48,545 bases of DNA, from positions 1-48,545 of the forward strand of contig JAUQWQ010000013.1 of assembly GCA_030835085.1 (NCBI GenBank), given 5' to 3'. The position numbers and the translations under genes are program-made. The notes beneath the pieces are model-generated. The model worked only from the letters and a program-made list of their open reading frames with translations, made no database searches and was not told the origin of the DNA. Shown here piece by piece: positions 11,523 through 16,588 of the stretch (positions are counted from its first letter, which is position 1; each line of letters starts with the position of its first letter). This stretch comes from Ignavibacteria bacterium. GTDB lineage: Bacteria; Bacteroidota; Ignavibacteria; Tepidaquicellales; OLB5.

Positions 11523-11933
11523 TTAATCGTAATACCACCGGGAATAAACTTTTACAGCTATGCTATCTTTATTATACCTTACCTCTGAGCCGAACCATGC
11601 TATATCTCTTAAAAGCGATAATTTCTTATCAGTCCTCCTAATAAGATAACCATCACGGGTATAGTAATTACCAGTTAATGATTGAAGTGTATCGTAATCT
11701 TTATTCATAGGTTCACCAACGAGCTTTTTTACCTCACTAATATGCATTCCTTCTTTAACCAGCTTGAATTTCTCGGGAGTGTAATCCGGTGCCATTTCTG
11801 TATCAGCATAAGGATCAATTATATTGTAACTTTCACCAAGTATAAATCCGCCTGTAAAAAAAATCAGTACTAAAATAAAACTTCCAATTACCAAGGATAA
11901 TGCCTTTAGAACTTTGCGTTTTAGATTGTTCAT
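11523..11933 (-). CDS. Membrane-anchored protein with BamE/SmpA-like repeat
   Basis: 136 residues. One N-terminal helix (LSLVIGSFILVLIFFTGGFIL) anchors a small periplasmic domain. YTPEKFKLVKEGMHISEVKKLVGEP has the BamE/SmpA-OmlA pattern of a helix-turn 'GM..xeV..llGeP' followed by strands. It lacks a lipobox, so it is not BamE itself. Five bases separate it from the gene at 11939-12208, and it is the last gene of the minus-strand cluster starting at 16588. Function unknown. Confidence 0.6.
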   Translation of the reverse strand: MNNLKRKVLKALSLVIGSFILVLIFFTGGFILGESYNIIDPYADTEMAPDYTPEKFKLVKEGMHISEVKKLVGEPMNKDYDTLQSLTGNYYTRDGYLIRRTDKKLSLLRDIAWFGSEVRYNKDSIAVKVYSRWYYD

Positions 11934-11938
11934 GTTGT

Positions 11939-12208
11939 TTATATTAAAATTGAAAGAGAAAATACGAGATAGCCAAGATCAAACGATGCGAACGTAAGAA
12001 CTAATCCAATTTTCATTGCTTTGCTCCACTTATTGGAAAAGCTGCCTTCTAGCCATGGCAAGAAGCACAAACCAAGCACTACGCCCAGTAGTGAAATAAA
12101 AAAGAATAATTTGGTAACATTGCCTGAAGGTTCATAAGGTTGAGTTGTTGTGGTAAGAAAAAATAAAGCGAGCGAAGCAGCAATAATTATTGCTAATATT
12201 AACTTCAT
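11939..12208 (-). CDS. Small membrane protein, unknown
   Basis: 89 residues with about three hydrophobic segments: an N-terminal IILAIIIAASLALFFL, KLFFFISLLGVVLGLCFLPWL, and a C-terminal KIGLVLTFASFDLGYLVFSLSILI. No family recognised. The order and tight spacing (50 bases after the zinc-ribbon gene at 12259, 5 bases before 11933) suggest cotranscription with the cluster. Confidence 0.6.
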   Translation of the reverse strand: MKLILAIIIAASLALFFLTTTTQPYEPSGNVTKLFFFISLLGVVLGLCFLPWLEGSFSNKWSKAMKIGLVLTFASFDLGYLVFSLSILI

Positions 12209-12258
12209 TTCGAGAATCCTTTCGACTGATTAGAAAAAATCGTAAGTTTTCTCTTATC

Positions 12259-12867
12259 TTATGCCACCTCTATTCCTAACACGGCATCTTTCAGCCTGCC
12301 GTTAGGCTGTTTGTAGAACGGTACGCCAAGTACCTGGTAGCTTTTCACATCAATATCGTAATTGATATTCCGGATTGTATCACTTTTCTCGGCTTCAATT
12401 GAAAGGAAAAGAAATTCTGCAATTTTCTTAGCATCTTCCTTAGAGAAATTAAAACCCGTCATCTTCACGTTATACTTCTGCGGTGATGGTACTGCGTTCT
12501 TAAGCGTGTAATTTACGCCAATGTTCTTGGCTGATTCAATAGGCATCCAGAATGCCGGAACGTAGAACTTCACTTCACCTTCAGTCTTATTGGCTCCGCC
12601 AAAAAGATTTGATATCCACCCGCCTGAGGAATCCCTGGAGCGTATATTTACATGCGCGTTAACAAGCCAGAATCCCTTGTAAACAATTTCACCATCACCC
12701 TTTACCAGGGGTGCAGCAAAGTTCACTTCAATGGGAACCAGCTCATCATTTACAATTTCCCAGCCGTTACCGCAGCTTGAGCAATATACAATGCTGTCAT
12801 TCATTTCAACGGTTAACCCGCTATCACATGACTTGCATTTTACAGCTATTAATTTAAAATCTTCCAT
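12259..12867 (-). CDS. Zinc-ribbon protein of the SPFH cluster
   Basis: 202 residues, no membrane helix. The N-terminal zinc ribbon has CKSCDSGLTVEMNDSIVYCSSC, i.e. two CxxC knuckles at ~residues 10-32. The rest is mostly beta: VKFYVPAFWMPIESAKNIGV carries an aromatic xPxFW motif also seen, as YIPYW, YYPLW and YFPVW, in the two other zinc-ribbon proteins of this cluster. Several lines follow of KVKxYxVLGVPFYKQ type. I do not recognise a named family; it is probably a cytosolic partner of the SPFH protein at 15578-16588, by context only. Confidence 0.7.
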   Translation of the reverse strand: MEDFKLIAVKCKSCDSGLTVEMNDSIVYCSSCGNGWEIVNDELVPIEVNFAAPLVKGDGEIVYKGFWLVNAHVNIRSRDSSGGWISNLFGGANKTEGEVKFYVPAFWMPIESAKNIGVNYTLKNAVPSPQKYNVKMTGFNFSKEDAKKIAEFLFLSIEAEKSDTIRNINYDIDVKSYQVLGVPFYKQPNGRLKDAVLGIEVA

Positions 12868-12890
12868 ATTATTCTATCCTGTACGAAGTG

Positions 12891-12920
12891 CCTGCCTGCC
12901 GTAACGGCAGTCCAGGCAGG
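12891..12920. repeat. Nested palindrome of the CCTGCCTGCCG type
   Basis: CTGCCG (12896-12901) pairs with CGGCAG (12905-12910) around TAA, and the outer CCTGC (12891-12895) pairs with GCAGG (12916-12920). It lies in the 150-base gap between two zinc-ribbon genes. It looks like a dispersed GC-rich intergenic hairpin; it could act as a terminator or mRNA end but has no T tract. Confidence 0.5.
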
Positions 12921-13017
12921 AAGGATCTCAATAATGAGACCCAAAATTATTATTAATTGTAGTTTAAAAATATTGTTTCAAATTGATAAGACCCTTCGTT
13001 TTCACTCAGGGTTTATG

Positions 13018-14103
13018 CTATCGCCTCAAAAAGCTCGATGCAATACTTGCCACATCAACAACATTGATACCGGTTGCCATACTTTTCACGGTGTTTGCAT
13101 TCTTGCCGCCAAAGAAACCTTTCTTGGGCGGGGCAACTATGCCCGTGCCTTCTTCAACCTCGCCGCCATAACGGAACTTCTTATATCCCCACATCATAAT
13201 TATGATACCGAATATCAGCGCGAATACATATACAACAAGCGCCGCTTTGGCGCTGTCGCCATCGCCGATAATACCAAAGATGCCGAAGAATGTGACCAGG
13301 TATGAACCTATAGCAGTGCCGAAAATTCCTGCTACAGCACGGTACAGATTGTTGCCCGGCGCTTTACCGTAACAAATAGAGCCGTCTTCGCCATCAACTA
13401 CAACCTGGTATGTTCTGCCCTTATATAAATACCTTACCACCCACAGCGGGTAATAAACTATCGATACATTCGGTCTTACAAGATCGTTATGCTGGAAAGT
13501 AACCTGGTCAACCTTAATCGAATTAACAGCTTCTTCTATGAACTGTGCTTTGGCAATATCAGTAACTTCACGCTCTGAGGAAATAATGTTGAAGAGCATT
13601 CCTTCTGACTGCAGCTCTTCAAAATTTACAGCGCGCATTTCATCGCCTTCAAGATTCACCTTCCTTACGCCAAGCTCAGCAACATCACAAGCAGCAAATG
13701 TCCTGTCAAACGGCTTCTGAATCTTGCGCTCAACATCAACATAATATGTGGTTGTTCTGCCGTTGACGGTTTGTGTGCGGCGTTCTTTGCCGAATACCCA
13801 GCCGATGACATCGGCTCTTACCCGCCAATAGGGTATATAGACAAGGAAAGCATCATCAAGCTTCGCCTGGTTTTTAAGTCCGCGTGCCTTTGCCAGACCC
13901 TTGCCAAGCCAGTTGAACATGTTCTGTATCGCAATATTCCGCTGTACTTTGCGCGGAACGTAATATTTCACAACGCCATCAACACCCTTGGTTAACAAAA
14001 GTGTACCGCAGTACTTGCAGTTGAAGGTTTTTATGCCTTCTCTTAAGTCAAGCTCGCCTGCGCAGGCGGGACACGTTATTCCTTTTAATACTTTTTCAGC
14101 CAA
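13018..14103 (-). CDS. Zinc-ribbon membrane protein of the SPFH cluster
   Basis: 361 residues. The zinc ribbon at residues ~9-36 is GITCPACAGELDLREG...CKYCGTLL. A soluble beta region follows with DDAFLVYIPYWRVRADVIGW, a RTQTVNGRTTTYYVDVERK hairpin, and VSIVYYPLWVVRYLYKGRTY. Two or three C-terminal helices (~285-345) precede a basic tail. The segment YLYKGRTYQVVVDGEDG is closely similar to YNFGGQSYTALVEASSG in the protein at 14680, so the two share a domain besides the ribbon. Likely a membrane partner of the SPFH protein; the comparison is with YdjG-like proteins of Firmicutes, by architecture only. Confidence 0.75.
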   Translation of the reverse strand: MAEKVLKGITCPACAGELDLREGIKTFNCKYCGTLLLTKGVDGVVKYYVPRKVQRNIAIQNMFNWLGKGLAKARGLKNQAKLDDAFLVYIPYWRVRADVIGWVFGKERRTQTVNGRTTTYYVDVERKIQKPFDRTFAACDVAELGVRKVNLEGDEMRAVNFEELQSEGMLFNIISSEREVTDIAKAQFIEEAVNSIKVDQVTFQHNDLVRPNVSIVYYPLWVVRYLYKGRTYQVVVDGEDGSICYGKAPGNNLYRAVAGIFGTAIGSYLVTFFGIFGIIGDGDSAKAALVVYVFALIFGIIIMMWGYKKFRYGGEVEEGTGIVAPPKKGFFGGKNANTVKSMATGINVVDVASIASSFLRR

Positions 14104-14178
14104 TTGAATTTAAATTGAAATGAATATTTTTAAATTAGTCTTTAATTTTTAAAAACCTTACTTGCTTCATCTGAAATC

Positions 14179-14676
14179 TTATTTAAACTTCAAACATGTA
14201 AATAAATTCAGAAACTCCTTATCAGTCATATCATTTTCATCCAGAAAAATAAACATATATGCGACTGCGGTTTTTGATTTATACATATATAATTGCCAGC
14301 ACTGTTTATAACCTATATCGTATTTATCTGAAATTTTAAAAGAGCCTGAACCGGCCTCAGTTGCATTGTATTTGTCCGGGTCGAGCTTAATGGATTCATA
14401 AGTACCATCCTTATAAAGTTTCAGTACTGGATATTTTTTAGATTCTTCGGAGATAAGTTCTATATCAATTCTGATCTCCATTTTTTTATCACTGTGTTTG
14501 AAACATACATCACTCATCGCCAGAGAATCATTACAGTCTTTTTTAAGTTCATAATTATCCGGCAGATCAAACGTCATTTTGCTTTCTTTTAACAGAGCTT
14601 TAAATTCCTTAGGCAGTTCCGTTTGAGCTGAAATTGCGCAAGATAGTACCAGCAAAAAGATAAGTACTTTTATCAT
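14179..14676 (-). CDS. Exported protein, unknown function
   Basis: 165 residues. MIKVLIFLLVLSCAISAQTE is a signal peptide, cleaved after Ala. The mature part is a small alpha/beta protein with two Cys (DCNDSLAMSDVCFKH) that may form a disulfide, and LYMYKSKTAVAYMFIFLDENDMTDKEFLNLF near the end; this resembles stress-response or PsbP-like small secreted domains but I cannot assign it. It lies 3 bases after the upstream zinc-ribbon gene on the same strand, so it is almost certainly cotranscribed. Confidence 0.65.
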   Translation of the reverse strand: MIKVLIFLLVLSCAISAQTELPKEFKALLKESKMTFDLPDNYELKKDCNDSLAMSDVCFKHSDKKMEIRIDIELISEESKKYPVLKLYKDGTYESIKLDPDKYNATEAGSGSFKISDKYDIGYKQCWQLYMYKSKTAVAYMFIFLDENDMTDKEFLNLFTCLKFK

Positions 14677-14679
14677 TAT

Positions 14680-15483
14680 TTATACTTTCTTGGCTATCAC
14701 ATAAGCCATAACGATTAACGGCACTGATACCAGACCGAAAGCGAATATTTTAAAGACCTCTGCTGTCAGCAAAGCTTCTTCCATGTCTCCGCTGTTAAGC
14801 GCAAATCCTATTACGTAACATAGAATACTGGTAATAACAAATGCCGCAATGCTCAGCCCGAATAATATTCTGAAAGGAGCTTCGCTCTTTGCGGGATATA
14901 TATTGGAATATACCTGTCCTGATGATGCTTCAACCAGAGCGGTATAGCTTTGACCGCCAAAATTGTAATAGAACTGGTAGAACGGAATGTGTACTAAAGC
15001 TGCTTCCTTGACGCTATCCAGGCTAACACCGGAACCCTGCAGCCATGCCTGCGCTGAATCATAAAGCACGTCAGGCTTTTTTATCTCATCGTCATTGTGA
15101 ATGGTCTTATCGTAGAACTTTAATGCGCCGGCGGGAATCTGTAATTTTTTAATTTCAGATACTGACGTGCTTGCCGCAGGCTGAAGGTAAATTTTATCAC
15201 CCGATGAATCCTGGGTCTTGAAATACCAGACAGGGAAGTAATAGAACTCAGTCTTTACAATCTGGGCCTTCTGGTCAAGATCCTTGACCGTGTGATTGCC
15301 GGCCATCCATCTTTTCAGGTTGCCTTCGGCTTCGTTTGGTTTAAAATTTGAATTTAAGAGGTAATGGAAAACTACTTTTCGTTTATCTAAAAATAATGCC
15401 GATGCGCAAAACGGACACTCTATGAAAGTTTCATCCTGTTGTACTGTAACATCAGCCCCGCATTGTGTACATTTTATTTGCAT
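14680..15483 (-). CDS. Zinc-ribbon membrane protein of the SPFH cluster
   Basis: 267 residues. Zinc ribbon at the extreme N-terminus: MQIKCTQCGADVTVQQDE then IECPFCASALFLDKR. A beta region follows with TEFYYFPVWYFKTQDSSG and the shared module HIPFYQFYYNFGGQSYTALV. Two C-terminal helices are present (ILFGLSIAAFVITSILCYVIGF and FKIFAFGLVSVPLIVMAYVI). It resembles the protein at 13018-14103 in order of parts but is shorter. Two hairpins (15501-15562) separate it from the SPFH gene. Role inferred from context: probably a membrane-bound complex with the SPFH protein. Confidence 0.72.
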   Translation of the reverse strand: MQIKCTQCGADVTVQQDETFIECPFCASALFLDKRKVVFHYLLNSNFKPNEAEGNLKRWMAGNHTVKDLDQKAQIVKTEFYYFPVWYFKTQDSSGDKIYLQPAASTSVSEIKKLQIPAGALKFYDKTIHNDDEIKKPDVLYDSAQAWLQGSGVSLDSVKEAALVHIPFYQFYYNFGGQSYTALVEASSGQVYSNIYPAKSEAPFRILFGLSIAAFVITSILCYVIGFALNSGDMEEALLTAEVFKIFAFGLVSVPLIVMAYVIAKKV

Positions 15484-15500
15484 ATTTTACAGAAATAGTA

Positions 15501-15562
15501 GCACAGACATTCGTGTCTGTGCATAATAAAATTAAGAAGGACAGACAAAAATTGTCTGTCCT
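15501..15562 (-). terminator. Two hairpins between SPFH and zinc-ribbon genes
   Basis: First stem: GCACAGACA (15501-15509) with TGTCTGTGC (15514-15522), loop TTCG. Second: AGGACAGACAA (15538-15548) with TTGTCTGTCCT (15552-15562), loop AAA. Both are perfect and share the ACAGACA/TGTCTGT core. They lie between 15483 and 15578 and may attenuate or process the operon mRNA so that SPFH message is in excess. Confidence 0.6.
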
Positions 15563-15577
15563 GCTATTAATTTGTTA

Positions 15578-16588
15578 TTACAGTTTTGAAAGCAGATCTT
15601 TTTTCTTTGTATCAAATTCCTCCTGGGTCAATGCTCCTGCATCCTTAAGCTTTGCGAGCTTTTCTATGGTTGCAAGTACATCATCCTGTGACTGCTGTAC
15701 AGGCGGATTGTTCTGCTGCTGCTGGTTCTGGGGATTTTGCTGATTCTGCTGCATTGAGCCCATCATCATGTTAGCCATTGTCATTCCGGCTCCCAAGCCA
15801 ACACCCAAACCGGCTGTGCCGCCTGCGCCTTCATTTTCCGCGGCTTTTTCCATTGCCATAGCGGTTTTGAACTTCATGTAGTTATCCAGATTTCCGATAG
15901 CGCCCATTGAGCTTCTTTCGTTGATCTTTTCCTGTACTTCATCAGGCGGAACTATACCAACTATGATAAGATCGGTAAGCTCTATACCCATTGAATTAAA
16001 GAAATCGGTAACTTCAGCTTTTATGCCTGATTCTATCTGCGGGTAATACTGCCCCAGGTCAAATACTGTTTTAAGATTTTTTCCTAAAACTGAATTTAGC
16101 TTTGATACAATTGAATCCCTTAAGTAATCTTCAATTTCATTGGTGGTGTATTTACCCTGTGTACCGACTATTTCGTTGATAAAGAGCTGGGGATCTTTAA
16201 CCCTCATAGAGAATTTACCCGAAGCTCTTAACTGAACGAATGATAATTCAGTATCACGGAAGTTAATAGGTGATTTGGTTCCCCATTTAAGATCAATGAA
16301 CTTCTTCATTGATACATAATACACCTGTGCCTGGAACGGTGAGTTAAACCCGAAAGGCAGTGAAAGCAGCTTTGTTAAGAACGGGATGTTAGCCGTTGTT
16401 AATGTATGGCGGCCTGCGCCGAATACATCAAGCGCTTTTCCGTCCTTGTAAAATACCGCTGTCTGGGTGTCCTGCACAATAAGCTGCGCACCCATTTTTA
16501 TATCCGTCGAACCGGCCTGCGGTTCGCGGTGAACCAGCTCTTTACCGGATTCATCAAAAAACTGGATTATTTCTAATGCATTACCCAT
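15578..16588 (-). CDS. SPFH-domain protein with C-terminal SHOCT motif
   Basis: 336 residues. The SPFH (band-7-like) region covers ~residues 25-225, e.g. [35 protein letters not shown], then [18 protein letters not shown] and [21 protein letters not shown] Gly/Met/Gln/Pro-rich linker (~250-300, with [18 protein letters not shown]) leads to a SHOCT motif, [19 protein letters not shown]. There is no N-terminal membrane helix. This architecture matches the YdjI-type 'virion core protein' family, which in B. subtilis assembles at the membrane with zinc-ribbon partners and recruits PspA under stress. No PspA gene is in this window. The gene heads the cluster reading down to 11523. Confidence 0.88.

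Follow-up and report, generated by a model that had tools for sequence, protein, structure and literature searches.

A PspA-less, expanded set of SPFH and zinc-ribbon genes in one order of Ignavibacteria

In a 48,545-nucleotide stretch of DNA from an Ignavibacteria bacterium (contig JAUQWQ010000013.1; hereafter the window, meaning the whole stretch analysed), seven minus-strand genes bring together an SPFH protein, zinc-ribbon proteins and small envelope proteins. An earlier note, made from the sequence, related these genes to the YdjG/YdjH/YdjI proteins that act with PspA in Bacillus subtilis membrane stress, and proposed them as the best candidate in the window for an undescribed system. This raises the question of which of the seven genes belong together, and whether what they form is new or is a variant of a known membrane-protection set.

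All seven open reading frames (A to G) are present as described, within positions 11523-16588 of the minus strand. Gene A (15578..16588) encodes an SPFH (Band_7_1) protein of 336 aa with a Gly-rich linker and a C-terminal SHOCT domain. Gene B (14680..15483) encodes a 267-aa protein with a zinc ribbon (C5, C8, C23, C26), an aromatic beta module and two transmembrane (TM) segments, and gene D (13018..14103) a 361-aa protein with a zinc ribbon (C11, C14, C29, C32), the aromatic module (YIPYW at residue 89, YYPLW at residue 217) and likewise two TM segments. Gene E (12259..12867) encodes an order-specific, soluble zinc-ribbon protein of 202 aa. The other three genes are accessory: C (14179..14676) encodes a small exported protein with a signal-like N-terminus, F (11939..12208) an 89-aa membrane protein with about three TM segments, and G (11523..11933) a protein of 136 aa that has a single TM segment at its N-terminus and a BamE-like match below the cut-off.

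The seven genes differ in their conservation. Among 30 loci compared from the genus and a neighbouring family, all within one Ignavibacteria order, A, B, D and E keep an identical order and strand in every complete locus of the two families, with roughly 50-99% identity. Phylogenetic profiling over 44 genomes of the order, proposed by the earlier note as a check, bears out their co-inheritance: A occurs in 35 of the 44 genomes and D in 36, with the mismatches at contig ends, and contig edges aside the four genes are present either all together or not at all. A-B-D-E is thus a real conserved unit of four genes, gained and lost together. All four are missing from 6-7 of the 44 genomes, and the set is therefore dispensable. 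In contrast to this intact core, C, F and G turn over rapidly: a homologue of C was found in one close relative, at the same position, homologues of F in three relatives, and homologues of G in about five, all of them from the genus. A seven-gene system was rejected because these three genes are not conserved; C lies outside the conserved unit.

Within this unit, the gap between A and B contains two strong hairpins on the minus strand (15501..15562; AGGACAGACAATTTTTGTCTGTCCT and GCACAGACACGAATGTCTGTGC, with arms GGACAGACA...TGTCTGTCC and CACAGACA...TGTCTGTG), found by a scan for terminator-like structures. Several close relatives have comparable hairpins between A and B, and the motif of the first one is found a single time in the window. 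They could possibly act as an attenuator or a read-through terminator; a terminator has been reported inside the B. subtilis pspA-ydjGHI operon.

The assignment of A is firm. Both of its domains score above the Pfam cut-offs (Band_7_1, PF13421, E 3.1e-62, 210 bits against a cut-off of 24; C-terminal SHOCT, PF09851, E 4.3e-9, 36 bits against 27), and no hydrophobic segment was found in it by hydropathy, in agreement with the earlier description of an SPFH protein that lacks a membrane helix and has a SHOCT tail. It is also the sole strong Band_7_1 gene of its genome. Being TM-free and encoded in one operon with membrane-spanning zinc-ribbon proteins, A is of the YdjI type, for which B. subtilis offers the parallel (PMC8581546).

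The zinc-ribbon proteins B, D and E each have a single CX2C-X14-CX2C ribbon, whose four cysteines are invariant among 22-24 homologues of each protein. Hydropathy places two TM segments at the C-terminus of both B and D and none in E, so that the description of two membrane proteins and one soluble one stands. The set had also been read as triplicated, with all three proteins sharing a module after the ribbon. Over ribbon and module, B and D align at 97.7% hhalign probability (E 2e-12, 193 columns). When the ribbon was removed and the profiles were compared with reversed and column-shuffled controls, the B-D match became weaker but persisted (E 1e-4; controls at least 0.076). The region of E downstream of the ribbon is marginal by itself (E 0.005-0.04), and its match to D overlaps the shuffled controls. 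The shared module and the repetition of the set therefore hold for B and D, whereas for E they extend to the ribbon, the module not being demonstrable. The aromatic expression [YVF]xPx[WYF] was discarded as evidence, since it also matches two of four unrelated flanking proteins; its match in E (YVPAF, residue 102) differs in position from those in B and D.

These comparisons extend to proteins outside the order. In Vibrio, Paracoccus, Comamonas, Tsukamurella and many carrier Bacteroidota, a gene directly downstream of a Band_7_1 SPFH gene encodes a protein with two zinc ribbons, the same aromatic module and one C-terminal TM segment. D aligns to the second ribbon and module of this two-ribbon family (hhalign 98.8%, E 1e-16; module alone, E 3e-10), and B to the ribbon and first module (96%; module alone, E 2.6e-4, controls at least 0.018). 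By profile comparison, B and D thus belong to this widespread, unnamed membrane protein family. With ribbon and domain homology, a C-terminal TM region and an SPFH neighbour in each case, both are of the YdjG type, B being divergent. E reaches 90-91% against the same family from the ribbon through a [VY]YxPFW stretch and may be a compact relative; every complete locus includes it in the operon, and samples of the class and phylum held no full-length homologue of it outside the order. In a tree, B and D cluster against all other family members (96/96), which fits a duplication within this lineage, although their branches are long. Structural comparison added little: a search for solved structures related by sequence found none, the AlphaFold models were weak (pLDDT 48 for D and 55 for E, with few close relatives in the input), and a fold search with the E model returned zero significant matches.

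The two-ribbon family adjoins SPFH genes in Proteobacteria, Actinobacteria, Bacteroidota and Enterococcus. Across 247 genomes of the phylum, the ribbon-module family occurs in 13, all of which also have a strong Band_7_1 gene, compared with 34 of the 247 overall (P ~6e-13, uncorrected for kinship; ten families); in 10 of the 13 the two genes are adjacent. The aromatic module was covered by neither a Pfam nor an NCBIfam model. The tails of the SPFH proteins vary by lineage (SHOCT, GYF_2, HTH_17 or a zinc ribbon), as if these differing short domains filled one role.

Several of the loci examined have neighbourhoods of their own. On the Paracoccus ferrooxidans plasmid pFER4 (L104, 1695-6413), genes for TelA-type toxic anion resistance and a DUF2927 protein precede the pair on the same strand, which may hint at a connection with tellurite-type stress genes. 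On a Vibrio coralliilyticus plasmid (L103, 72-6133), the pair adjoins a divergent cluster in which one gene encodes a TIR-domain protein. Two Bacteroidota loci (L143, 6360-9492; L142, 3443-6581) encode an SPFH-SHOCT protein, zinc-ribbon proteins of 80 aa and 312-314 aa, and a protein of 318-320 aa; this set differs from that of the window, is kept in two genomes and was not flagged for the YxPxW motif. In a further Bacteroidota locus (L141, 6067-9551), an SPFH-SHOCT gene is followed by a RanBP-type zinc-finger protein and three tandem copies of a protein of about 150 aa.

The link to YdjG itself runs through Enterococcus gallinarum, where an SPFH gene is followed by genes for a ribbon protein and then a TPM protein, a ydjI/G/H-type set of the kind described for Firmicutes (PMC11237479). 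D matches this SPFH- and TPM-flanked ribbon protein by BLASTP (E 8e-9) and by profile (96.7%), and homology accordingly supports the suggested relation to the B. subtilis ydjGHI/pspA genes. PspA, by contrast, is absent, as the earlier note had observed for the gene set. No PspA/IM30 match was found in the genome of origin (a 99% complete MAG) or in any of the 44 genomes of the order, whereas the same search gave matches above the cut-off in 8 of 17 other SPFH-carrying Bacteroidota genomes and 9 of 14 controls. A domain search found no TPM (YdjH) gene at the window locus. Two adjacent TPM genes lie elsewhere in the genome (contig C182, 5929-7038), but TPM genes are common and this pair was not accepted as a proven YdjH counterpart.

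We consider it about an even chance (roughly 50%) that A-B-D-E is a PspA-independent membrane-protection set of the YdjI-YdjG type. Because of the homology with the B. subtilis set, A would be the scaffold and B and D its anchors. A would form a cytosolic SPFH oligomer incapable of binding the membrane alone; B and D, anchored in the inner membrane by their C-termini, would hold it through their cytosolic ribbon and aromatic beta module, and E would join this assembly as a soluble ribbon adaptor. Lining the cytoplasmic membrane from the inside, the scaffold would take the place of a PspA/ESCRT-III coat and preserve membrane fluidity and integrity during envelope stress. The soluble YdjI of B. 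subtilis depends on YdjG and YdjH for recruitment to the membrane and forms foci that persist when PspA is absent; the membrane becomes more rigid when YdjI is lost (PMC8581546). The presence of two TM segments each in B and D while A has none supports recruitment of this kind, whereas the lack of a YdjH-type partner at the locus counts against it, as YdjH touches YdjI in two-hybrid data. The absence of the whole set from several genomes of the order also speaks against the overall reading. A role in membrane stress is inferred from B. subtilis. A broader version, in which SPFH-ribbon pairs are a widespread PspA-independent module and the two diverged anchors B and D build with the soluble ribbon E a hetero-oligomeric scaffold that replaces the PspA coat in an order where searches found no PspA, is less probable and is put forward tentatively.

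Other functions have to be weighed against this membrane-protection reading. The one that survives best, although we regard it as unlikely, is membrane protein assembly or quality control unrelated to stress sensing, in which an SPFH cage comparable to HflK/C-FtsH would enclose its clients and the ribbon proteins would be adaptors for clients or a protease. In favour of it, A has a weak match to HflK, SPFH proteins generally form enclosing oligomers (PMC10936438, citing a solved bacterial homologue), and a chaperone-like role has been ascribed to band-7 and TPM domains within PSP contexts (PMC11237479). However, the HflK match lies far under its cut-off, and among the loci examined the pair had no conserved neighbour that could be recognised as a protease or AAA gene. 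Less probable still is a membrane-tethered regulator, whose TFIIB-like ribbons would bind nucleic acid while the SPFH scaffold released or sequestered them to control transcription. DNA binding was suggested for YdjG by Popp et al. (PMC9239133), in some relatives the ribbons score against the TFIIB model Zn_Ribbon_TF (E-values 1e-6 and 4e-7), and one SPFH relative has an HTH tail; yet B, D and E gave no match to that model, ribbons mediate protein contacts equally, and the set has no conserved regulator gene beside it in the order. Given the rapid turnover of C, F and G, one could also take the cluster for small envelope genes that lie side by side neutrally and share no function. This is highly improbable and already contradicted for A-B-D-E by collinearity and all-or-none inheritance in two families and by an SPFH-ribbon adjacency that spans four phyla.

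Anti-phage defence was also considered and rejected: PADLOC gave no accepted match, its best hits (E 0.004-0.04) lying mostly over the ribbon, and viral contigs contained no relatives. Zinc-ribbon matches in 'phage' records came from unannotated contigs, some of them labelled unverified, which are probably host DNA.

The prevailing view of B. subtilis YdjI is that of an adaptor through which PspA reaches the membrane. The conservation and co-inheritance of an SPFH-anchor set in an order without detectable PspA point to a separate function of the adaptor half, and provide a clean natural system in which the SPFH-anchor part is separated from PspA. It also marks the zinc-ribbon/aromatic-module family as a regular partner of SPFH proteins in four phyla. 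The reading as an undescribed system was overstated, as the locus represents a lineage-specific form of the SPFH-zinc-ribbon pair, which is widespread though functionally uncharacterised.

Among known systems, the flotillins FloA and FloT bind the membrane themselves and are not known to have zinc-ribbon partners. With NfeD, they too represent an SPFH membrane scaffold that affects fluidity (PMC8581546). A shares its architecture with Band_7_1-SHOCT proteins, SHOCT being joined to Band_7_1 more often than to any other domain (PMC3581485); the passages there that deal with it cover the architecture and not zinc-ribbon gene partners. The pairs of an SPFH protein and a 'TFIIB-type zinc ribbon-containing protein' on Comamonas, Vibrio, Paracoccus and Tsukamurella plasmids likewise have an adjacent ribbon/aromatic-module/TM gene and no PspA gene beside it, but they consist of two genes only, and their SPFH tails are GYF_2 or HTH, with SHOCT in Novosphingobium and some Bacteroidota. 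The B. subtilis set also places a TM-free SPFH protein beside zinc-ribbon membrane proteins. Unlike that set, the window genome lacks PspA and the locus lacks TPM; A carries SHOCT where the B. subtilis SPFH protein carries a C-terminal zinc ribbon, B and D have one ribbon and two TM segments each where the B. subtilis type has two ribbons and one TM segment, and the B/D duplication and the extra protein E are found at the window locus and not in the B. subtilis set. The locus is therefore best described as a PspA-less, expanded set of the YdjI-YdjG type, in which the ribbon anchor is duplicated and E is a third partner specific to the order, rather than as something categorically new.
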